In this document: piece by piece, positions 2,951-19,663 of the stretch
How the letters are laid out: each line of letters starts with the position of its first letter
Numbering within the stretch: the first letter of the stretch is position 1
Source of the DNA: a virus
Length of the DNA: 20,296 nt
Direction: 5' to 3' (one strand)
Virus record (IMG/VR): IMGVR_UViG_3300015241_000145
Span: 1 to 20,296 of that record
The notes under the pieces: model-generated
The model's input: the letters and a program-made list of their open reading frames with translations, nothing else
The model's database searches: none
Told to the model about the DNA's origin: nothing
Made by a program: the position numbers and the translations under genes

Positions 2951-3564
2951 TGCTCGCCCCGCCTGACCTTCTACCGCCATGGCATCCGTTCGGCGGGCTG
3001 CGCGAGCGTGGCTATGGCGCCATCCTCGCCGACCCGCCGTGGCATTTCAAAACCTACAACGAGAAGGGCCGCAACCGATGTCCGGACTGGAAGAGGTTCA
3101 AGGGTTCTCCGTGCAGGCATTACGAGACGATGACTCTGTCGACAATAAAGTCTATTCCGGTATCACAACTTGCGCTGCCCAACTGCATATTATTCCTTTG
3201 GGGGTGCTGGGCTACACTCCCGCACGCAATGGAAGCTATCGATGCGTGGGGCTTCGCGTACAAGACGGCAGCTTTTGTGTGGTGCAAGTCTGGCCGGATG
3301 GGGCTTGGTTACTGGACCAGGCAAAATACCGAGTTCTGCTTGCTCGCGACGAAGGGGAAGCCGCAGAGGCTGTCCAAGGCGGTCGTCCAGGGGATCACGG
3401 CGCCCAGGCGCCTGCACAGTCAAAAGCCTGATGAAGTCCGCGAGCGCATTGAACAGCTCGTCGCCGGTCCTTATGTTGAATTGTTCGCACGCAGCTCGCG
3501 CCCCGGCTGGGACTCCTGGGGCGATCAGGATGGAAAACTAAATGTCACCCACAAAGACGATTAA
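2950..3564 (+). CDS. MT-A70 family adenine-N6 DNA methyltransferase
   Basis: 204 residues starting at GTG 2950, with GGAGG 10 nt upstream. The catalytic DPPW sits at residues 28-31 (ILADPPWHFKTY). FLWGCWATLPHAMEAIDAWG (82-101), FVWCKSG and the TRQNTEFCLLATKG segment (123-136) are family-typical, as are HSQKP (156-160) and a final PYVELFARSSRPGWDSWG. MT-A70 enzymes transfer a methyl group from SAM to adenine N6. Single-domain phage versions are thought to methylate the phage genome at short motifs or interfere with host restriction. No cognate endonuclease is adjacent, so this looks like an orphan methyltransferase. Confidence 0.93.
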   Translation: MLAPPDLLPPWHPFGGLRERGYGAILADPPWHFKTYNEKGRNRCPDWKRFKGSPCRHYETMTLSTIKSIPVSQLALPNCILFLWGCWATLPHAMEAIDAWGFAYKTAAFVWCKSGRMGLGYWTRQNTEFCLLATKGKPQRLSKAVVQGITAPRRLHSQKPDEVRERIEQLVAGPYVELFARSSRPGWDSWGDQDGKLNVTHKDD

Positions 3565-3727: not shown

Positions 3728-3831
3728 AACCTTCCTTCCCGCGCCTTAGGTGCGACGACTGCGGAGCCATCATGGATCGGATTCCAGATAAGCCCTTTTG
3801 GCTTTTGGGTTTGCCTATGTTGCTGGTTTGA
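3724..3831 (+). CDS. Very small CxxC protein, 35 aa
   Basis: ATGA overlap with the upstream stop and a strong AGGAGAAGAA ribosome site (3714-3723). The product has one RCDDCG motif (residues 9-14), then a hydrophobic C-terminus ending WLLGLPMLLV. It could be a half zinc knuckle that dimerises, or the truncated head of a longer zinc-ribbon protein. Low certainty because of size. Confidence 0.45.
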   Translation: MKPSFPRLRCDDCGAIMDRIPDKPFWLLGLPMLLV

Positions 3832-4880: not shown

Positions 4881-5184
4881 TCGTCGCCCGCATCGCGACG
4901 AGCTGGAACTCCATCATCCGCAGCATGACCTTGGACAGCTCGATGATGGCTGTGGCCGAGGCGTCATACTCACCCAGGCGCTCGCGTTCATCCACGAACG
5001 CTCGCATCCCCTTGACGTAGGCATCGGCCTGCTCGACCATGTTGAGCAGGGCTGTCATCGAGCCAATGGCGTCGAGCTTGGCATGAGAGACTGACGCTAT
5101 TTGCGCCATCACGGCGTTGGCGTCTTCACGCAGCTTCTCGAACATTTGCGAATTGCGACCTGCTTCTAGTATCTTCGAGTCCAT
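4858..5184 (-). CDS. Minus-strand helical protein, 108 aa
   Basis: Start chosen at the ATG complementary to 5182-5184 because it is preceded on the minus strand by AAAGGAGACGAC, an excellent ribosome site; a longer frame to 5244 lacks one. The product is almost all helical, with a methionine-rich middle and end (for example SKVMLRMMEFQLVAMRA at residues 84-100). No cysteines or enzyme motif. It fills a 300-nt interval with no plus-strand gene. Its ATG shares the palindrome CATG with the likely terL start. Possible roles are an antisense-strand regulator or an accessory gene; function unknown. Confidence 0.75.
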   Translation of the reverse strand: MDSKILEAGRNSQMFEKLREDANAVMAQIASVSHAKLDAIGSMTALLNMVEQADAYVKGMRAFVDERERLGEYDASATAIIELSKVMLRMMEFQLVAMRATINFRLEN

Positions 5185-5185
5185 G
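5182..5185. other. Shared CATG: divergent start codons
   Basis: The four bases CATG hold the minus-strand ATG of the 108-residue gene (5184 to 5182) and the likely plus-strand ATG of terL (5183-5185). The minus-strand start has a good ribosome site and the plus-strand start does not. terL translation therefore competes with, or depends on, structure in this small region. Confidence 0.5.
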
Positions 5186-6934
5186 TCGTCTCCTTTCGAA
5201 ATTGTTGTTCGCAACGCTGCCCGGGCCGCCGAGATGGGGACCAAGCAGCTTTGCGAGGAATCGCTGATCGAGCTGACCGCCTATCTGTGGGACGTCGCCG
5301 ACCCTGGCGAGCCGCTGGTGGGCGGCTGGGCCATGGATGCCATAGCCGACCACCTGGAGGCAACCTTTTATGACCACATCAAACGGCTTCTTATCACTGT
5401 TCCGCCCGGATTCTCGAAATCGTCACTCACAAATGTTTTCTTCCCGCTCTGGGTCTGGCTGCGAACACCACATGCCAGATTTATCGGGGCCAGCTACGAG
5501 TCCGGCATCCCGGAGCGCGATAACCTCAAGTGCCGTCGACTCATCCAACACGAGAAGTGGCAGCGATTTTGGTCAGATCGCTTCTCCCTCATCGTCCCCA
5601 CCACTGTGGAGCGCTTTGAGAACGACCACACCGGATGGAAAATGGCCACCGCCGTCGGCGCCAAGCTCCTCGGCTACCGCGGTAACTACATCATCATCGA
5701 CGACGCCAACGATCCCTCCATCGAGCATCAGTCCGGCGCCAAGCGCATTCAAGCGGTTCGTTGGTTTCGCGAGGTGGTTCCTACGCGACTGAACAACATG
5801 AGTCGTGACAAGATCATCGCCATCCAGCAACGGCTTCATATGGAAGACGTCGCCGGTACCGCGCTGAGCCTGGAGCACGAGAACTACGTCCACCTCAACA
5901 TCCCGATGGAGTACGAGCCGCGGACCTACATCAACGCCTGGGCGCCGCCGGACGCGGACGATCCCGACGGCCCTGACCAGATCGTCACTCTGTTCGACGA
6001 GACTGCCGAGGCGGCCGTAGCTCTCAATCCAGATGTCATCTACTGGCAGGACCCGCGCACCGAGCCCGGCGAGCTGGCATGGCCTGAGCGGTTCACTGCA
6101 AAGATGGTGGCAGTGCTCAAGAAGACGCTGGGCAAGACCATGTCGTCGGCCCAGCTCCAGCAGCGCCCGGTGCCGCGCGGCGGCAACATCATCAGGACCG
6201 AGAGCTGGAAATTGTGGGACAAAGAGATTTATCCAACATTTTCCTATATCCTCGCCACGCTCGACACCGCCTACACCGAGAAGACATCGAACGATCCGTC
6301 GGGCATCGCCATCTGGGGCCTGTTCTACGACAACACCGGAATGGTCGACGTCCGCCTCGTCGATCGCCTGGGGCGCCAGCTTCCGCTGATGGAGGAGGAG
6401 GGCAATCCCAAGGTCATGCTGATCTACGCCTGGACAGATCATTTCGAATTAAATGATCTCGTCCGTCGGGTTCTGCATACCTGCACCAAGAATCAGATCA
6501 ACTACGGGCTTGAACTGCAAGGCATGCCGCGGTTTCCGGTCGACACGCTGGTGATCGAGGGCAAGGCCTCCGGCCTGAGCGTCCAGCAGGAAATCACGCG
6601 CCTGCTGTCGCTCGGCCGCGGGCGCACGCTCAACGTCGAGATGCTGCCGGCAAAATTATTACGGGATGACAAATTGTCGCGGCTGGTTTCTGTCTCTCAT
6701 TTATTTGAGAACGAGGTTGTTTACGCTCCTGACAAGGAGTTTGCTGGCAAAGTGATCGATCAAGTCGGGAACTTCCCTTACACGACCCATGACGAGTACG
6801 TGGACTGTACCTCCATGGCGATGCGCTGGTTCCGCGACCATGGCTTCGCCCCGACCCGCGAGGAGCTGTTCGAGGAGGCCGACAACGCCGTGGCGTTCAG
6901 GCAGAAGCTGAAGCCGCTGTACGGAGGAATTTGA
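5183..6934 (+). CDS. terL: Terminase large subunit (TerL)
   Basis: The packaging motor ATPase and nuclease, which acts at the portal. From ATG 5183 it has 583 residues. The Walker A-type loop is VPPGFSKSS (73-81, with K79), the Walker B is YIIIDD (169-174), and IIAIQQRLHMEDVAG (211-225) is the coupling segment typical of this terminase family. The C-terminal RNase H-like nuclease shows TLDTAYTEK (359-367, D361), VIEGKASG (457-464, E459) and HDEYVDC (536-542, D541) as metal-binding acids. A TTG at 5117 and an ATG at 5234 are other possible starts; family similarity begins near residue 24, so the exact start is uncertain. It is followed directly by the recombinase gene (TGATG). Confidence 0.95.
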   Translation: MSSPFEIVVRNAARAAEMGTKQLCEESLIELTAYLWDVADPGEPLVGGWAMDAIADHLEATFYDHIKRLLITVPPGFSKSSLTNVFFPLWVWLRTPHARFIGASYESGIPERDNLKCRRLIQHEKWQRFWSDRFSLIVPTTVERFENDHTGWKMATAVGAKLLGYRGNYIIIDDANDPSIEHQSGAKRIQAVRWFREVVPTRLNNMSRDKIIAIQQRLHMEDVAGTALSLEHENYVHLNIPMEYEPRTYINAWAPPDADDPDGPDQIVTLFDETAEAAVALNPDVIYWQDPRTEPGELAWPERFTAKMVAVLKKTLGKTMSSAQLQQRPVPRGGNIIRTESWKLWDKEIYPTFSYILATLDTAYTEKTSNDPSGIAIWGLFYDNTGMVDVRLVDRLGRQLPLMEEEGNPKVMLIYAWTDHFELNDLVRRVLHTCTKNQINYGLELQGMPRFPVDTLVIEGKASGLSVQQEITRLLSLGRGRTLNVEMLPAKLLRDDKLSRLVSVSHLFENEVVYAPDKEFAGKVIDQVGNFPYTTHDEYVDCTSMAMRWFRDHGFAPTREELFEEADNAVAFRQKLKPLYGGI

Positions 6935-7821
6935 TGAAAAACAAACTGGAGCTAGCAATTAGCACATCGACATCATTCGACAGCGCATGGAAGGATTTTT
7001 ACAGGTGGGCGAGAAGTAGAGGATTTGTGCCAATACCCACTTCTCAATGGGTACTCGCCGATTACATCTTCTATCTTTTGGAGGATCAAAACCTCAGCAT
7101 CTCAACTGTCTTACGAAAATTAACATCTATCAAATATAGGAATCTGGAGTGGTATGGGCACATTGTAGACGATGAGTGCTTTCGTGGAATCCTGAATATT
7201 TTGCACACCCAATTCTATCGCCAACCAAAAAGAGCGGAGCCATTAACGCCTGTGCAAATCAAGAAAATAGCTGACTATCTACAGCCGCATGACCGAGCTT
7301 TACTCTTGACAGGATTTATGGGGGCGTTGAGACGATCGGAAATCGTAGCCTTGAATCCTGATGATATTATTCGTACCGAACGCGGCGCTTTGATTCTGAT
7401 TCGAAAATCTAAAGGTGACCAGGAAGCTAAAGGCCAGCAGGTTGAAGTTTACCGTGGGTCTGATGCAAGATATTGTTGCCTGTCTGCGATGGAGGAGTGG
7501 TTTGGGGTTAAGGAGATTCATGCAGGCGAGCCAATTTTTCGGCGCATCCGTCGGGGCGATCATCCTGGCACTGCCGATGATCGCTTGACGGGACAAAGCG
7601 TGACAAAGTTTGTCAAAGAGTGGGTTCCGCTAGTCGGTCTCAATCCTGATTTGTACAGTGCAAATTCACTACGTTCGGGGAGAGCAAGTTCGATTGGATT
7701 CAAGGGTGGTAGCATTTGGGGAATCAGAACGATTCTTAGACACCTCACCCCCACACTTGAGGAAACGTACGCCAGACGCCGAAACAGAGCCGCTGATGTT
7801 AGAGCCTTAAGGTCATTGTAA
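6934..7821 (+). CDS. Tyrosine recombinase / integrase, embedded in packaging operon
   Basis: 295 residues. The SAM-like N-terminal core-binding domain covers about residues 10-100 and the catalytic domain about 104-290. Catalytic residues are R133 (GALRRSE), probable K160 (RKSKGDQ), R247, H270 (ILRHLTP) and the nucleophile Y279 (EETYARR). The box II His of the usual HxxR is Asn (N244, ANSLRSGRA), an unusual change that may lower activity. The gene is AT-richer than its neighbours: 26 of 60 bases at 7021-7080 and 21 of 60 at 7081-7140 are G or C. It begins on the terL stop with GGAGGA upstream and abuts the next gene. No attachment site was seen. Likely a transferred gene. Confidence 0.9.
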   Translation: MKNKLELAISTSTSFDSAWKDFYRWARSRGFVPIPTSQWVLADYIFYLLEDQNLSISTVLRKLTSIKYRNLEWYGHIVDDECFRGILNILHTQFYRQPKRAEPLTPVQIKKIADYLQPHDRALLLTGFMGALRRSEIVALNPDDIIRTERGALILIRKSKGDQEAKGQQVEVYRGSDARYCCLSAMEEWFGVKEIHAGEPIFRRIRRGDHPGTADDRLTGQSVTKFVKEWVPLVGLNPDLYSANSLRSGRASSIGFKGGSIWGIRTILRHLTPTLEETYARRRNRAADVRALRSL

Positions 7822-8587: not shown

Positions 8588-11074
8588 ATGGCCCGGTCTA
8601 CCAATGTCATCCCGTTAGACGCCTACCAGAGCCGCCTGCGGCTGGCCCACGGCAAGCAGGATGCCCAAGACGTCCGCCGTGACGAGCACCGGCGCGCCCA
8701 AGGGCTCCCGGACAAGACCGGACGACCGCTCAACGCCCGCGGCAAGGACTCATTCACCAGTAAGGACGCGGCCGACATCGGCACCATGCGTCCGGACATG
8801 AACTCTCCAGCCAATGAGCCGATTGTTGGCGACTCGATCGTCGACATCGCCCAAGGCGTTGCGATGCCGGTCAATCGTGCCGGTGACGCCAAGTCGATCG
8901 AGCTGGGCGACGGCAGCGTCATCATCGATCTCAACCCGTTCTCAAGCGTCGACATCGACGAGCGCGAGGATGGTGAGGAGCGCGGCTTTGCCGACAACCT
9001 CGCTGACGACATCGATGAGATGGAATTGGCCGCGATATCGGCCGAAACCCTGGAGGGCATCAGGCAAGATGAAGAAAGCCGCCGCGACGTCCTCGACACA
9101 CGCCAAAAAGGCATCAAGCTCCTCGGCCTCAAGATCGAGGAGCCGCGCGGAGATGTCGGCACGTCTTCTGCGCCGCTTGAAGGAATGTCCACTGTGCGGC
9201 ATACCCTTCTCCTCGAAGCATGCGCCAGCTTCCAGGCAGGAGCACGTGCTGAGCTGCTACCATCGGAAGGTCCTGTCAAAGTTAGAGTTGACTTACCTCC
9301 GGGCGCCCAGCCAGCACAACCTGGACAGCCTCCTCAAGGGCTTGGCCAGCAGCCGCTCGATGAACTCGGTGAAGCTCTCCAGAAGGACATGAACCACTAT
9401 CTGACGACGACCGCGTCAGAGTACGTTCCCGATACCGACCGCATGCTGTTCATCGTAGGATTCTCAGGCGATGGATTCAAAAAGCTCTACCACGACCCCC
9501 TCAAGCGACGACCGATGTCTGTCTCTGTCGATCCCGAAGACCTCATCGTCAGCAACATGGCGACTGATATCGAGAGCTGCGGACGAGTTACGCACCGTAT
9601 GCGGATGCGACGTTCGCTCCTTCGACGAATGCAGATCATCGGTGCTTACCGCGACGTGCATATCCAACAGGCTGCGGTCGCGGACACACCCGATGCGGTG
9701 AAGCAGGAGATCGCCGATGTCGTCGGCGCCAAGCCGGAGCCGATGCGGCCCAAGGACGTCGATTACACGCTGTTCGAGTGCTATTGCGAGCTGGACATCG
9801 ACGCATTCGCACCGCCGCAGTTCAAGGGCAAGGCGCTGCCTTTGCCCTACCGCGTGACGATCGAGAAGGACTCAAAACAGATTCTCGAAATCTCGCGCAA
9901 CTGGAAGAAAGACGATCCGCTGTGTCAAGCGCGACAGACATTCGTGCAATATCCATTCATCCCGGCTCTTGGGTTCTACAGCCTCGGATTCTTGCATTTG
10001 TTGGGCAACACGACACTTGCCCTCACTGCGGCTACGCGGGAGATGCTCGACGCCGGTATGTTCGCGAACTTCCCTGGCTTCGTGTACGCCAAGCAAGTCG
10101 GGCGGCAGCTTACGAATCAGTTCCGCTGCCCGCCGGGCGGCGGCGTCGCGATTGATCTTCCCGCCGGCATGACGGTGCAGCAGGTCGTGATGCCGCTGCC
10201 CTACAAGGAAGTCGGCCCGGCTTTCCCCGCCTTCATCCAGCATGTCGAGCAGAATGGCCGCCAGCTCGCGATGGTGAGCAACGCTCCGGTCGCCGAAGGC
10301 AAGCAGGATGCTCCTGTGGGCACCACGCTGGCGCTGATCGAGCAGCAGACCAAGGTGCTTGGCTCGGCCTTCAAGCGTCTGCACATCGCGCAATCGCGCG
10401 AGTTCAAGCTTCTCGTCGATCTCTTCAAGGAAGACCCCGAGGCGATGTGGCGCCACAACGAGCGCCCGCAGATGAACTGGACGAAAAAGCAGTTCCTCTC
10501 GGCCTTGCAGCGCTACGAGCTGGTCCCGGTCGCCGATCCGAACAATCCGACCAGCCTGCACCGCATGGCCAAAGCTGCCATGCTCAAGACGCTCCAAGCG
10601 GCCAACCCCGGCATCTACGATCCGATCGCGGTCGACCGCCGCGTGCTGACCATGGCGGCCATCGATCCGGAAGGGCTGTTCAAGGGACCGGCGCCTGCGG
10701 CGCCCGACCCCATGATGATGCTCCTGCAAGCGAAGATTCAGCTTGAGAACCTGAAATTGCAGCAGAAGGACAAGGAGCTTCAGCTCAAAGCTGCGACCGC
10801 GGCGATGCAGCAGCAGGGCAAGGCTGCCGACCGTTCGTCCCAGGAGCGCGTCGAGCTGCTCAAGCAGGACATCGTCAAGATGGAGCAGCAGTCCCAGCTC
10901 GTGCTATCTGGGCTCAAGCACAACGCCGACATGATCATGCACGTGCATGGCCAGATGGCCAAGACGGCCGGCGGACCTTCGGCCTTCCCAGGCAAACCCG
11001 GCGGTGACGGCAGCTCGCCGGGGATGCAGCAGGAGACCGAGCACAAACCGACGTCAACAGGAGTTGTTGACTAA
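8588..11074 (+). CDS. Portal protein (P22-like, large)
   Basis: 828 residues. The dodecameric channel at one head vertex through which TerL pumps DNA. Support: position after terL, size in the range of P22-type portals, the segment FECYCELDIDAF (396-407) with PYRVTI, a GFYSLGFLHLLGN stretch (462-474), and SNAPVAEGKQDAPVGTTLAL, all patterns of this portal group. The N-terminal ~200 residues are acidic and variable. The C-terminus (709-789) is a long Gln/Lys-rich coiled coil of the portal-barrel kind, followed by a Gly/Pro tail. Start ATG 8588 lacks a perfect ribosome site (GGAGC at 8579-8583). Confidence 0.88.
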   Translation: MARSTNVIPLDAYQSRLRLAHGKQDAQDVRRDEHRRAQGLPDKTGRPLNARGKDSFTSKDAADIGTMRPDMNSPANEPIVGDSIVDIAQGVAMPVNRAGDAKSIELGDGSVIIDLNPFSSVDIDEREDGEERGFADNLADDIDEMELAAISAETLEGIRQDEESRRDVLDTRQKGIKLLGLKIEEPRGDVGTSSAPLEGMSTVRHTLLLEACASFQAGARAELLPSEGPVKVRVDLPPGAQPAQPGQPPQGLGQQPLDELGEALQKDMNHYLTTTASEYVPDTDRMLFIVGFSGDGFKKLYHDPLKRRPMSVSVDPEDLIVSNMATDIESCGRVTHRMRMRRSLLRRMQIIGAYRDVHIQQAAVADTPDAVKQEIADVVGAKPEPMRPKDVDYTLFECYCELDIDAFAPPQFKGKALPLPYRVTIEKDSKQILEISRNWKKDDPLCQARQTFVQYPFIPALGFYSLGFLHLLGNTTLALTAATREMLDAGMFANFPGFVYAKQVGRQLTNQFRCPPGGGVAIDLPAGMTVQQVVMPLPYKEVGPAFPAFIQHVEQNGRQLAMVSNAPVAEGKQDAPVGTTLALIEQQTKVLGSAFKRLHIAQSREFKLLVDLFKEDPEAMWRHNERPQMNWTKKQFLSALQRYELVPVADPNNPTSLHRMAKAAMLKTLQAANPGIYDPIAVDRRVLTMAAIDPEGLFKGPAPAAPDPMMMLLQAKIQLENLKLQQKDKELQLKAATAAMQQQGKAADRSSQERVELLKQDIVKMEQQSQLVLSGLKHNADMIMHVHGQMAKTAGGPSAFPGKPGGDGSSPGMQQETEHKPTSTGVVD

Positions 11075-11098: not shown

Positions 11099-11431
11099 AT
11101 GGACGAAGCGGGAACGGTGCGTGAACAGGTAAAGTCGAGCTTACCACAGTGGCGGTCGCACAAGATCGTGCGCGCGGCGCCGATTCGGGCGATCTACAAG
11201 TCTGGCGTTACCAATGAGATGGAGGATACCTCGATTGAGGCTCGGCCGTGGATCGTCTACCTCGACGGTTATCCGTCATTCCAAGTGGACGCCAAGGTAT
11301 TTGCCCGCTACTTTCCGCAACCCGGCGACTATTTTGTCGTTTACGACGACGGCTACGAGTCCGTGTCACCCAAAAAGGCCTTCGAGGAAGGCTATACCTG
11401 CCTTGAGGGCAAACCTGCGGTGGGAGCGTGA
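11099..11431 (+). CDS. Conserved phage protein, 110 aa
   Basis: WRSHKIVRAAPI (residues 18-29), then PWIVYLDG and FARYFPQPGDYFVVYDDGYE (68-87), followed by SVSPKKAFEEGYT. This 'PQPG.Y.V.Y.DGY.S.SP..AFE.GYT' ending is shared by a family common next to phage portal or head genes; function not assigned. It lies 24 nt after the portal and ends in a GTGATG junction with the next gene. Confidence 0.75.
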   Translation: MDEAGTVREQVKSSLPQWRSHKIVRAAPIRAIYKSGVTNEMEDTSIEARPWIVYLDGYPSFQVDAKVFARYFPQPGDYFVVYDDGYESVSPKKAFEEGYTCLEGKPAVGA

Positions 11432-11664
11432 TGCCTGTTCCGCTCCACAACATGCGCGACCTGCTGATGCCCGGCCTTATGGCGAACCGGGCCGAATACA
11501 CGGCCATGATGTCGGTGTGGGAGAATGAGTTCGCTGTGGCGGCTATCGACACCGCCATCCTTCCCGTTGTGTCGCCGGTGGCTGCGGTTGCTGCCGCGGC
11601 TGCGGCGGCTGTGATCCGGAACCAGGTGGTGACCCGCAGGTTCCTACCTTGGAGGCGTGAGTGA
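11431..11664 (+). CDS. Capsid-N-terminus-like small membrane protein
   Basis: 77 residues from ATG 11431 (a GTG at 11428 is also possible). The first 16 residues, MPVPLHNMRDLLMPGL, match the major capsid protein's first 16, MPIALPAIRDLLLPGL, at 10 positions. Tyr23 and Trp30 are also at the same positions in both. The rest is a hydrophobic segment (about residues 38-62) with a run of alanines, and a basic end (RRFLPWRRE). This looks like a partial duplication of the capsid N-terminus fused to a membrane anchor. Role unknown: a decoy, an assembly or nucleation factor, or a homing peptide are all possible. Confidence 0.65.
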   Translation: MPVPLHNMRDLLMPGLMANRAEYTAMMSVWENEFAVAAIDTAILPVVSPVAAVAAAAAAAVIRNQVVTRRFLPWRRE

Positions 11665-11867
11665 CCACGAACGTCGAACCGATTCTACAATTCTTCGAGT
11701 ACGGTCATCTGCCGCCACATCTTGGGCAGGTCTCGGAGATGTTCTTTCAACTCGCGCATGATATCGTCCACCGGTGCCCCCGTTGTGCCGAGCGCACCGT
11801 GGCGCTGCGTAAGCTCCTCGAAGCCAAGGACGCCGCGGTGCGATCTGTGATATACAAGGAGGCGTGA
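11661..11867 (+). CDS. Acb2/Tad1-like small hairpin protein (candidate)
   Basis: 68 residues, GTG start overlapping the previous stop as GTGA, with GGAGG at 11651-11655. The pattern FFEYGHLPPHL (residues 11-21), LAHDI (32-36), then ERTVALRKLLEAKDAAVRS (44-62) is a widespread small phage family. Its helical-hairpin layout (Y..L.P, LA..I, P..ER..AL.KL.EA..AA.R) resembles the Acb2/Tad1 hairpin family, whose studied members soak up cyclic nucleotide signals of CBASS or Thoeris. That link is from memory of the family and is not shown here; binding residues were not verified. Confidence 0.55.
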   Translation: MTTNVEPILQFFEYGHLPPHLGQVSEMFFQLAHDIVHRCPRCAERTVALRKLLEAKDAAVRSVIYKEA

Positions 11868-12089: not shown

Positions 12090-13260
12090 GGCCCACGCGT
12101 CCAGCCGCGACAAGTTCCAGGCCATCACCGGTCACCGCGGTGGAGGGCACGCCCATGGCGGTAGTTCGCATCTCAAAAAAGCAGGCAAAGATGGTGTTCT
12201 CGAAACGTGGTCGGGGCACCACAAAACCCATCGGAAGGCCGAAGAACGTGCTCATGGTGGTCGCGCTAAAGCGCGAGCCGACCGGCACCGCCGGGCCAGC
12301 GGCGGCAAGGAAGACATGAAGGTTACGCTGACCGGTCCAGCCAAAGGCCCACATACTAAGAAACCGGTCGAGACTCCGACCAAGGAAAATCCTTTCCCTT
12401 CGATGATTACGACGGATGCCGGTGATTGGTACAAGCGTCTGCAAGGCCGTGATAAGAAATCAAATTCAGGCTTCTCCAAGCAGGACTTGGAGGGCATGGT
12501 GCATGGCAAGCGCGGCGGCAAGATGAAGCGCGGCGGTCGTGCCCTCGGCGGCGCCAAGAATGCCGACGACTGGGGTGACGAGGATTCGACCCGTCAGACC
12601 ATCCCGGTCAAGGAGAAGCCGGTGCAGTCATCGAAGGGTGATGCCTCCAACCGCAAGCGGTGGACCTACGATCCGCCGCAATACGAGGATTGGGGCATGC
12701 ACCCAGCGAGCGGCCGCAAGAAATACGCCCGCGGCGGCAAGGCTCCTGGCAAGGTGATCATCAACGTCAACGCGGCTGGAGCGCGGCCACCGCCGGCTAG
12801 GCCGCCGGTGATGCCGCCGCCAGCCCCACCGCCTGCTGGTCCGCCCCCGGGTGGTCCGCCCCCTGGCGGTGCTCCACCGATGCCGCCTCCGGGCGGCGGG
12901 GCGCCTCCTGGCGCCAACCCTTTGGCCGCCATCAAGGGCGGCATGGGCTTCGCACGCGGCGGCAAGGCCGGGCCGCAGCACCCAAACCCAGGCGGCGGTC
13001 CCCGCGGCGGCGATTCCAAGTACGATCTCGCCGGTTGGCGCAAGTATGCGGCCACGGATCGCGAGAAGCGCATGTCCGGCAAGGCCGGGATGACGCAAGC
13101 CTACACTAAGAAGATCGGCGACGACGGTTCGCTCGATGTCCAGCCGGTGAAGCAGGGCCGGACCAGCCGCGCCAGCGGCGGGCGCATGACGGCCGGTACG
13201 TTCTCCGGCGTGGGGCGGCTTGAGCAGGCCCACATCTCGGCCAGGGACCGCCATCGGTGA
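12067..13260 (+). CDS. Basic RGGK-repeat and proline-rich protein
   Basis: 397 residues with AAGGAG upstream (12054-12059). Extremely basic. It carries scattered glycine-pair motifs: AHGGRA (62-67), ASGGKE (77-82), KRGGKMKRGG (148-157), ARGGKA (221-226 and 297-301 region) and ASGGRM (369-374). Residues 241-281 are a Pro/Gly tract of PPGG units. There is no enzyme domain and the product is likely disordered. Similar RGG/KGG-rich small proteins occur in the head regions of alphaproteobacterial phages. It could bind DNA inside the head or be injected; function is inferred only from position and charge. Confidence 0.75.
   Translation: MAHPHKAEAHASSRDKFQAITGHRGGGHAHGGSSHLKKAGKDGVLETWSGHHKTHRKAEERAHGGRAKARADRHRRASGGKEDMKVTLTGPAKGPHTKKPVETPTKENPFPSMITTDAGDWYKRLQGRDKKSNSGFSKQDLEGMVHGKRGGKMKRGGRALGGAKNADDWGDEDSTRQTIPVKEKPVQSSKGDASNRKRWTYDPPQYEDWGMHPASGRKKYARGGKAPGKVIINVNAAGARPPPARPPVMPPPAPPPAGPPPGGPPPGGAPPMPPPGGGAPPGANPLAAIKGGMGFARGGKAGPQHPNPGGGPRGGDSKYDLAGWRKYAATDREKRMSGKAGMTQAYTKKIGDDGSLDVQPVKQGRTSRASGGRMTAGTFSGVGRLEQAHISARDRHR
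12787..12909. repeat. Low-complexity CCGCC-rich tract encoding PPGG repeats
   Basis: Imperfect short repeats of CCG/CCC/GGC codons giving Pro-Pro-Gly-Gly units inside the basic protein gene. It also opens long reading frames on the opposite strand. Such tracts are prone to length change by slippage, so the copy number may vary between relatives. Confidence 0.7.
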
Positions 13261-13514
13261 TGGCCGTCCACCATGCCAGCCAGCCTCCTTGGATGGGGGC
13301 TGGTGCCATTCCCAATCGCTACGCCCCGCCACCGCTGAGACAACCGCCGAGCTGGCCTGAAATCCTTGGCGTTTCTCCGCTGGCCGACAAAGTTGCCATC
13401 AAGGCCGCGTTCCGCCGGAAGGCGCAGCAATTCCATCCCGACCACGGCGGCACCGATTACCAGATGCGGTTGATCATCGGCGCCTACAAGGAGGCAATGC
13501 GCCGTGTGCGGTGA
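13260..13514 (+). CDS. Small J-domain (DnaJ-like) protein
   Basis: 84 residues, ATG sharing the A of the previous TGA (TGATG). A Pro-rich lead (1-31) precedes a J domain: SWPEILGVSP (31-40), AIKAAFRRKAQQF (46-58), the invariant HPD (59-61), HGGTDYQMRLIIGAYKEAM (62-80). J domains stimulate the ATPase of Hsp70 (DnaK). No Gly/Phe, zinc-finger or substrate-binding regions follow, so it could recruit host DnaK to phage substrates only through its short N-terminus. A GroES-like gene follows three genes on. Confidence 0.85.
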   Translation: MAVHHASQPPWMGAGAIPNRYAPPPLRQPPSWPEILGVSPLADKVAIKAAFRRKAQQFHPDHGGTDYQMRLIIGAYKEAMRRVR

Positions 13515-13602: not shown

Positions 13603-13810
13603 CATCTGGTACGGGCATCTGGCCCGCCGGCTTGACGAGAGGCACCGGGAGAAGGCTAAATACCTCGTCGACGGCGGCGCCCCGGACTATCCGTCATACA
13701 AATTCCAGGTTGGATATCTTCAGGGACTCGCCGATGCTCTCCTTGAAGCCGAGGAGGTAGACCGCGAACAAATGGGAATGTCGCCTCATGCCCCTCGCCC
13801 TACCACATGA
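13595..13810 (+). CDS. Conserved small phage protein, 71 aa
   Basis: I choose GTG 13595 because the longer frame to 13511 covers the tiny membrane gene with low-complexity Ser/Cys/Arg sequence. From 13595 the product begins HNIWYGHLARRLDERHREKA (residues 2-21), then GGAPDYPSYKFQVGYLQGLA, typical of small helical phage proteins ('L..rl..R..e.a..L..G.apd...Y...vGylrGL.dAL') found near head or connector genes. It overlaps the next gene by 23 nt. Confidence 0.6.
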   Translation: MHNIWYGHLARRLDERHREKAKYLVDGGAPDYPSYKFQVGYLQGLADALLEAEEVDREQMGMSPHAPRPTT

Positions 13811-14210
13811 AGCCGTCAAGAAATACTCTCAGATCACCGATCTGAAACAGTACATCGCCGAAGTCTTCAAGCAGGTCATGCCTGACCTGATGGATATCAC
13901 CCTCAACCGTGTTCTGTGCGCGGCCTACATCGCCAGCGAGAAGACAGCCGGCGGCATCATCAAGCCGCAGGATCTTGTCGCCGAGGATATTTGGCAGGGC
14001 AAAGCCGCGCTGGTGCTCAAGCCTGGACCGTCGGCGTTTCTGGATTCTCCCGAAGTCACCTTCCACGGCTTCATCGTCAATCCGGGCGATTGGGTGACGT
14101 TCAAGGTCGGCAACTCGTCGCAGATCGAGATCAGGGGATATCCCTGCCGCATCGTGGCCGATCACTTCATCGAGTCCAGGGTTCTCGATCCGAGGGCGGT
14201 GACATCGTGA
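13788..14210 (+). CDS. GroES-like co-chaperonin
   Basis: 140 residues. The central segment NRVLCAAYIASEKTAGGIIK (40-59) matches GroES (the 'DRVLV......EKTAGGI.LP' strand and mobile-loop region), followed by the beta-strand pattern GKAALVLKPGP (71-81), VNPGDWVTFKVGNSSQIEI (97-115) and YPCRIVADHFIES (118-130), the usual closing strands. Phage co-chaperonins (gp31 type) fold the capsid protein through host GroEL. Residues 1-38 form a helical extension absent from bacterial GroES. Location near scaffold and capsid genes supports this. Confidence 0.75.
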   Translation: MPLALPHEAVKKYSQITDLKQYIAEVFKQVMPDLMDITLNRVLCAAYIASEKTAGGIIKPQDLVAEDIWQGKAALVLKPGPSAFLDSPEVTFHGFIVNPGDWVTFKVGNSSQIEIRGYPCRIVADHFIESRVLDPRAVTS

Positions 14211-14673: not shown

Positions 14674-15780
14674 ATGCCGCGCCAAAGGCCACTTCGTCAA
14701 CCGGTCAACCCAAACCTCCCTGATACGGGAGCGGTGATGGTCGATCTGAACGCCGCCGGCCCCGAACCGCCGCCCAGGATCGTCTATGGCTCGTCGGTAC
14801 CGGCTCTTGCCGGTGCCTCTTCGGCCGCGCAGCCCGGTGTGTTTGCGCACGGCGCCATCAACCCGGAAGTCACGGTCACCGCGCGCTCGGATGCGGTCGC
14901 GCCAGCGCAGTTCGATGGCGGCGACGATGAAGACCCTGCGGTTACACTCAAAAATACCCGCGAGCGCGCCAAGGAGCGCGACCGCGCCAAGGCGCTGGAG
15001 GCCGATCATGCCAGGGTAACGCAGTGGGGCCAGGATCAGGCCAACCGCGCCGCGCTCGCGACCCACGCGCTTGCGGAATCCCAGCTCGATACCATCGAGA
15101 CGGCAATCGCCGCAGCCGAGGGCGAGGCAGAAGCAGCGACCAATAGCTGGGCCGATGCCATGTCCAAGGGTGACTTCGTCACCGCCGGCAAAGCTCAGCG
15201 TCAGCAGCAGGATGCGCAATTCCGCATCAATACCCTCAAGGCCGGCAAGGACGAATTGGCGACCGAGGTACGCAAGAAGCCGCAGGCCGCCGCGCCGCCG
15301 CCGCCGTCGATGATGAGCAACGTCGAGGTTCAGTTGGCGCGGATGCCGAATCTGATCGACTCGGAGCGCCAGTGGATAAGGGATCACCCTGATTCGATGG
15401 AGAACCGGGAAAATCAGTTGCGGATGCAAACCGCGTTCCTCGATGCGACCAAGCGCAACATCACGCGAGGCTCGCCCGAGTATTTTGCGTTCTTCAACGA
15501 ACGCATGGGTTACGAAGATGATGGCGGGGACGGGGGTCAGGAGGAACCGGTGGCGCAACCGCAGCCGAGATCGAGGCAAAACGGAGGAGGCCCGCGCGTG
15601 TCAGCCCCTGTCGTTCGTTCCGGCGGCGGTACGCTGCGGCCGGGTCAATTCCTGCTGACAGAAAGGCAGAGGGAAGCCGCGCGGATATCCGGCATCGACG
15701 AAGTCACCTATGCGCGCGGATTGCAGCGCATGATGGAGGCAAAGTCGCAGGGCATGTATGGAGCCAGTGAGCAGAAATGA
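14674..15780 (+). CDS. Putative head scaffolding protein
   Basis: 368 residues, acidic, mostly helical. Pro/Ala-rich start (1-80), a coiled-coil Glu/Arg/Ala segment (92-200), a Pro break (203-212), then a C-terminal part with MPNLIDSERQWIRDHPD (224-240), NITRGSPEYFAFFNERMG (262-279) and LTERQREAARISGIDEVTY (328-346). 'LT..QREAA..SGI....YAR..' endings and 'I.RGS.EYF..' stretches recur in scaffold-like proteins upstream of phage capsid genes. It precedes the capsid gene by 3 kb. Assignment is by pattern and context, not by a diagnostic motif. Confidence 0.6.
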   Translation: MPRQRPLRQPVNPNLPDTGAVMVDLNAAGPEPPPRIVYGSSVPALAGASSAAQPGVFAHGAINPEVTVTARSDAVAPAQFDGGDDEDPAVTLKNTRERAKERDRAKALEADHARVTQWGQDQANRAALATHALAESQLDTIETAIAAAEGEAEAATNSWADAMSKGDFVTAGKAQRQQQDAQFRINTLKAGKDELATEVRKKPQAAAPPPPSMMSNVEVQLARMPNLIDSERQWIRDHPDSMENRENQLRMQTAFLDATKRNITRGSPEYFAFFNERMGYEDDGGDGGQEEPVAQPQPRSRQNGGGPRVSAPVVRSGGGTLRPGQFLLTERQREAARISGIDEVTYARGLQRMMEAKSQGMYGASEQK

Positions 15781-18745: not shown

Positions 18746-19663
18746 ATGCCTATTGCACTACCGGCAATCCGCGATTTGCTCCTTCCTGGCCTCTGGGGCA
18801 TTTCTGGCCGCTACCCCATGATCGAGCGCCAATGGACCGGCATCTATCGGCAGACCGAGTCCGAGATGGCCCTCGAACGGCGCGCGGCCATGCGGTACAT
18901 GGGCTATGCCCAGCTCAAGCAGGAAGGTGGGCCTACCGCCTTCGACAACCGCGCCGGGCAGCGCTTCATCTACAACGCCGAGCACTTCGAAATCGGCCTC
19001 GGCTACGCGATCACCCGCAAGGCCATCGACGACAATCTCTACAAAGCAGAGTTCGGGCCGAGCAATGACGGCCTCATGGAATCCTTCAAGGAGACCGAGG
19101 AAGTCTACGCCGCCAACGTCATCAATCTGGCGAACGTCTTCAACCCGACGGTCCTTGGCGATGGCGTCCCGCTGATCAGCGCTACCGGCCACCCAATCGA
19201 CGGGGCCTTGGTCGCCAATCAGCCGAGCCCGGACGTCGATCTGAACGAAACGTCCCTCCTCAACGCCTGTATTCAAATACGGTCGACCTGGAAGGACAAC
19301 GCTGGCCTCAAGATTCACGCGCGCGGCCGCAAGCTGATTGTGCCGCCGAACTTGGAACCAATCGCCGTCCGCCTGTTCCGGTCGGAGCTGCGTGTCGGCA
19401 CCGGCAACAACGAAGTCAACGCTGTTCTTGGGATGGAGCAGTCCCTCAAGGACGGCTACATGGTGTATGATTACCTTACGTCGCCATTCGCTTGGTTCGT
19501 CCTGACGAATATCGACGGTCTGGTATTCTTCCACCGCAAGCACTTCGAGACCGACATGACCGTCGAGTTCTCGACCGACAACCTGCTGGTCAAAGGATAC
19601 CAGCGCTATGTCCCGTCCTACTACGAGTGGCGGGCGATCTGGGGGACGTTCCCGCTGAGCTGA
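18746..19663 (+). CDS. Major capsid protein (HK97-fold type)
   Basis: 305 residues with AAGGAG 18733-18738. The pattern ITRKAIDDNLY (89-99), then SFKETEEVYAANVINLA (113-129), LISATGHPIDG (143-153), RKLIVPPNLEPIAVRLF (195-211), YLTSPFAWFVLTN (243-255) and FSTDNLLVKGYQRY (275-288) is typical of gpT-like HK97-fold capsids ('AaNvlN.af', 'S..HP', 'KL.VPP.L...A..L', 'YL.d..aWFl', 'Ry..G'). The N-terminal 30 residues recur in the 11431 protein. Length fits a capsid of this kind without a long delta domain. Confidence 0.9.
   Translation: MPIALPAIRDLLLPGLWGISGRYPMIERQWTGIYRQTESEMALERRAAMRYMGYAQLKQEGGPTAFDNRAGQRFIYNAEHFEIGLGYAITRKAIDDNLYKAEFGPSNDGLMESFKETEEVYAANVINLANVFNPTVLGDGVPLISATGHPIDGALVANQPSPDVDLNETSLLNACIQIRSTWKDNAGLKIHARGRKLIVPPNLEPIAVRLFRSELRVGTGNNEVNAVLGMEQSLKDGYMVYDYLTSPFAWFVLTNIDGLVFFHRKHFETDMTVEFSTDNLLVKGYQRYVPSYYEWRAIWGTFPLS

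Follow-up and report, generated by a model that had tools for sequence, protein, structure and literature searches.

The small gene behind the portal gene and its surroundings

The window, by which we mean the whole stretch of DNA analysed here, is a 20.3-kb fragment (20,296 nucleotides) of a tailed soil phage, record IMGVR_UViG_3300015241_000145 of IMG/VR. The features on which this work depends are the following:

5117-6934: terminase
8588..11074, + strand: portal protein, SU10-like (Pfam SU10_portal, 3.8e-13; PHROG 1216 portal, 2e-17)
11099..11431, + strand: 110-aa protein between the portal and the small gene, coupled to the small gene (PHROG 11049, 1.2e-16, unknown function)
11431..11664, + strand: small accessory protein of 77 aa, ORF coupled on both sides; lacking as an exact one-gene unit in the close twin L001
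11431..11520, + strand: first 30 residues of the small protein, MPVPLHNMRDLLMPGLMANRAEYTAMMSVW, which resemble the N-arm of the major capsid protein (MCP) (BLASTP 12/30, E=3e-5; MCP profile matches)
11551..11619, + strand: Ala/Val-rich hydrophobic stretch, residues 41-63 of the small protein, a possible but doubtful membrane segment; the C-terminus after it is basic
11661..11867, + strand: 68-aa protein coupled downstream of the small gene (PHROG 1761, 8.4e-23, unknown function)
14674-15780: scaffold-like protein, assigned by position and composition only
18746..19663, + strand: MCP, Mu gpT-like family (PHROG 371 major head protein, 3.1e-6)
18746..18835, + strand: N-terminal arm segment of the MCP, counterpart of the start of the small protein

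The MCP (18746-19663) has homologues among annotated capsid proteins, and its match to the Pfam family Mu-like_gpT (0.0011) falls slightly short of the family cut-off. The nearest MCPs, with up to 99% identity, come from uncultured viral contigs. As two Bradyrhizobium genomes carry MCPs 54-55% identical to that of the window, the host of the phage is probably a relative of Bradyrhizobium.

Several other genes of the window deserve mention. A phage integrase gene is located between the terminase and portal genes (6931-7821; Pfam Phage_integrase, 1.5e-6) and is probably a recent arrival, since its third-position GC is 0.46 against about 0.75 in the adjoining genes. The head operon also includes a DnaJ-domain protein (13257-13514; Pfam, 2.2e-7) and a GroES-like protein (13788-14210; PHROG, 1.2e-5), and most of the distant relatives have an annotated GroES-like gene at the same place. 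The first ORF (104-631) resembles, by eye, a HisI-type phosphoribosyl-AMP cyclohydrolase.

The initial annotation had placed a small protein at 11431-11664, and an ORF of 77 aa is indeed found there. The start codon lies over the stop codon of the 110-aa ORF before it (TGATG), its stop codon is linked in like manner to the start codon of the ORF after it (GTGA), and its GC by codon position (0.68/0.48/0.78) is similar to that of the other genes of the phage; a real gene is thus very likely. The full sequence of the protein is MPVPLHNMRDLLMPGLMANRAEYTAMMSVWENEFAVAAIDTAILPVVSPVAAVAAAAAAAVIRNQVVTRRFLPWRRE. No annotated family of PHROGs, Pfam or NCBIfam matched it, the search for relatives of the protein itself or of its C-terminal half in phage records, viral contigs and 84,980 species genomes returned none, and solved structures gave no sequence match for the small protein, the MCP or the MCP profile. 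For the 68-aa neighbour (11661-11867), a role as an Acb2-like nucleotide sponge was considered and rejected, as it found no support in Pfam, NCBIfam or the PDB.

The start of the small protein resembles the N-terminal arm of the capsid protein

The small protein had been claimed to share its N-terminus with the MCP, and the resemblance proved to be significant and anchored at the start of both proteins. By BLASTP, residues 1-30 align without gaps with 12/30 identities (M1, P2, L5, R9, D10, L11, L12, P14, G15, L16, Y23, and W30) and E=3e-5 for that one comparison. When 22,107 ORFs from 83 loci were searched with a profile of 79 MCP N-termini, the small protein was retrieved at E about 4e-4, the best unrelated match having an E of about 2. 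In addition, a profile of full-length MCPs (28 diverse sequences) scored the small protein at 14.0 bits, while 20,000 shuffles of it that preserve composition reached 8.2 at most.

The coverage of the full-length profile was restricted to residues 1-37. Unlike an HK97-fold MCP, the small protein has the arm only, and the body of the fold (E-loop, P and A domains) is missing after it. The arm of the MCP is almost invariant among close relatives and its core positions are kept in distant ones; in the wider family it reads approximately LxPGLN.LFG.EY, and the columns conserved family-wide (P14, G15, L16, and Y23) are all kept in the small protein, within the same ungapped alignment to the N-arm of this Mu gpT-like family.

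At the DNA level, identity over the 90 bases of the arm was 46/90, whereas 47.9 +/- 2.7 is expected from the two proteins. A recent gene duplication as the origin of the start of the small gene is disfavoured by this lack of excess nucleotide identity, and, as the DNA is no more alike than the proteins require, any duplication of the MCP arm would be old.

A separate observation concerns the MCP gene of the relative L078, whose start (10001-10050) has an in-frame TGA directly after LLLPGL, at the nearly invariant W17. This is the only stop in a frame that is otherwise open, and it may be a sequencing error, the mark of a broken gene, or a TGA read as Trp.

The same start is present on a second family of small proteins

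The profile of 79 MCP N-termini also found three more small proteins in relatives of the phage, designated here by their loci:

L017, 5610-5837: arm-bearing small protein of 75 aa
L037, 3123-3539: arm-bearing small protein of 138 aa
L054, opposite strand, upstream of the terminase: arm-bearing small protein

The motif is thus not limited to the window protein. The three proteins are mutually homologous through their bodies (L017 with L037, phmmer 1e-9; L054, 1.5e-10 against the profile of the other two), which look soluble and are unrelated to the body of the window protein. The latter shares with this family the N-terminal stretch of about 16 residues only: the profile of the three scored it at just 12.0 bits, its pairwise alignment with the L017 protein ends at residue 16, and the common C-terminal body of the family (LTR-E-I ... 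R-EAL) is missing from it. The recurrence of the capsid-like start on a second, unrelated family of small proteins is a finding of this analysis.

The spelling of the arm in the L017 and L037 proteins may track that of the MCPs. Position 9 is K both in the L017 small protein and in the MCP of the same locus, and the L037 protein has the variant spelling RN..LLPGLWA, as do the MCPs of the Bradyrhizobium-borne relatives; this agreement is suggestive only. Apart from the arm, the C-terminal part of the L037 protein (3123-3539) resembles, by eye, the product of a separate gene of L064 (2782-3033; DWWPD..I.RGE), which suggests a gene fusion in the post-portal slot.

Genomic position and distribution of the arm-bearing genes

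In L017 and L037 the arm-bearing gene is located directly behind the portal gene, and in the window one gene later, such that three of the four arm-bearing small genes have a place in the head operon behind the portal gene, L054 being the exception. L018 is without exactly the L017 gene, and there the stop of the portal gene and the next gene join at a single TAATG junction. Similarly, L001, with an MCP 99% identical to that of the window, is without exactly the window small gene, and a remnant of the start of the next gene directly abuts its 109-aa gene. That next gene, the 68-aa gene of PHROG 1761, is complete in the window (11661-11867) and in L017 (8923-9183), and in L001 it is represented by its first few codons only (3749-3775), beside the gap.

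An arm-bearing gene was present in 3 of the 41 loci that have the post-portal region. The profiles were also run on 12 complete phages of the wider group, from isolates or metagenomes, and found the MCP alone or nothing, so 0/12 had an arm-bearing small gene. The MCP-arm profile made from the wider group itself found MCPs only (Pelagibacter, Roseobacter, Caulobacter, Alcaligenes, cyanophage, and related records), and the arm profile of the window group found nothing in the wider-group records except one plasmid-borne MCP. The top match other than an MCP in two Bradyrhizobium genomes of 8.5-9 Mb reached 15.6 bits, against 21.3 for the window protein, and scans for DNA patterns of the DLLLPGLW and DLLMPGLM variants returned MCPs, the already known L054, and chance matches only. 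The arm-bearing small gene is therefore accessory and not core, gained or lost as a single unit, and its counts in the post-portal loci and in the complete phages of the wider group indicate that it is not a general assembly factor.

Discussion

Our tentative reading, to which we give somewhat less than an even chance, is that a small, non-essential, head-associated protein imitates the arm of the MCP and docks at the site of that arm in head assembly. Two unrelated small bodies with an MCP-like arm, encoded mostly in the head operon, would most simply be explained by a shared docking site. The arm of the small protein would take the site normally held by the MCP arm during assembly, which could be on a neighbouring capsid subunit, on the scaffold, or at the edge of the portal vertex, the place of the one missing pentamer. 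Docking would bring the C-terminal part, modelled as helical, into or onto the procapsid, such that the protein may either occupy a vacant arm site at the portal vertex or be carried into the procapsid. Both the binding to the partner of the MCP arm and the action in head assembly are our inference; the earlier proposal that the shared arm may bind the same partner fits the significant profile match and the recurrence on small proteins of relatives, two of which are encoded right after the portal. In the capsid of phage GP4, the layer on which the cement trimers rest is made of N-arms and E-loops from different capsomers (PMC9698820), and the arm is therefore an inter-subunit contact in that capsid. 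The structure model of the window MCP is too poor (mean pLDDT 44) to locate the contacts of its arm. A wider claim, possible although we think it unlikely, is that the phages of this group use the MCP N-arm as a portable docking tag, which at least two unrelated kinds of small accessory protein would have acquired at their N-terminus and by which they would reach the growing procapsid; the genes of these proteins would be exchanged one at a time in a slot behind the portal gene.

This arrangement recalls the capsid targeting sequence of the internal head proteins of T4 (Mullaney and Black, 1996, as cited in PMC9958956). It is also a short N-terminal segment on small accessory proteins of otherwise different sequence; however, the T4 sequence is a substrate of the head protease, whereas the segment of the small protein resembles the N-arm of the MCP itself. 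Neither a head protease gene nor a cleavage site was recognised among the window genes scanned. Encapsulin targeting peptides are short peptides that dock other proteins to an HK97-fold shell, as is proposed for the arm, but unlike the window arm they usually stand at the C-terminus and do not derive from the shell protein (PMC8346489).

Alternatively, the pattern MPxxLxxxRDLLxPGL could be a short amphipathic helix-turn start of independent origins and without a common partner. Most of the score comes from only about 16 residues, and similar strings do arise elsewhere, as NEIRDLLPPGL within an unrelated 76-aa protein of G006 and DLIMPGLM within a large protein of L125 (763-codon frame). These chance strings are internal, however, and that of G006 reached 10.6-11.8 bits against 19-24 bits for the three best start-anchored cases; the window match runs ungapped through W30, and four small proteins occur in one phage group whereas none of comparable score was found in 17.5 Mb of bacterial DNA. 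We thus consider convergence unlikely, although with an appreciable chance of being right.

The copy of the arm might instead interfere with another process, either by occupying a host defence protein that senses capsids or by poisoning the assembly of a co-infecting relative. We judge this rather improbable. Capsid proteins trigger known defences: CapRel-SJ46 binds freshly synthesised MCP, and Lit is activated by the Gol peptide of the T4 MCP (PMC9712102). The rare, single-gene accessory distribution is typical of genes acquired in conflicts, and it fits such a function as well as it fits docking. On the other hand, no capsid sensor described so far is known to recognise the N-arm in this MCP family, the lack of an annotated family match in PHROGs, Pfam or NCBIfam also weighs against a decoy, and the small protein, being encoded in the head operon, would probably be made no earlier than the MCP. 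Our literature search on capsid-arm decoys or paralogues gave nothing direct.

The initial annotation had also seen a hydrophobic anchor in the small protein and suggested that a capsid arm tethered to the membrane could start head assembly there. Portal initiation in T4 is membrane-bound and requires the phage chaperone gp40 (PMC9958956), and the small protein is like gp40 in being tied to the portal, by gene position, and in its possible hydrophobic segment. The hydrophobicity stood, with a Kyte-Doolittle maximum of 2.18 around residues 43-62, above the usual cut-off, and a basic tail after it, but the anchor is equivocal. The stretch is Ala-rich with two prolines, and the predicted insertion energy of the best 19-23-residue segment was +1.67 kcal/mol, no better than the +1.30 of the best segment of the portal protein (approximate values); furthermore, the arm-bearing protein of L017 is without a hydrophobic stretch (Kyte-Doolittle 0.38). 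A single-sequence AlphaFold model of the small protein has two long helices and says little (mean pLDDT 83, pTM 0.40). Membrane tethering is therefore doubtful. If the protein did span the membrane, the positive-inside rule would leave the basic C-terminus in the cytoplasm, which suggests an outward-facing arm, placed on the wrong side to nucleate heads. We hold assembly started from such a tether at the inner membrane to be very improbable.

We give an equally low chance to the reading of the gene as a relic without function, left by a partial MCP-gene duplication that happened long ago: the rare distribution and the abrupt end of the similarity past residue ~34, where a low-complexity GCN-rich stretch takes over, would fit, but the frame is intact, its GC by codon position is normal and it is tightly coupled to both neighbours, the arm is kept although the DNA is without excess identity, and the motif recurs on another protein family, the last two points also disfavouring a recent duplication.

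Docking at the site of the MCP arm is worth a bench test, as the arm recurs on a second protein family. Should the small protein prove to be a decoy, this would indicate that Bradyrhizobium-type hosts have a defence that senses the capsid arm. As a docking tag, the arm would be the equivalent of the T4 capsid targeting sequence, but free of a protease and taken from the coat protein itself; it would reveal what the MCP arm binds in assembly and would offer a natural tag to load proteins into HK97-fold shells.
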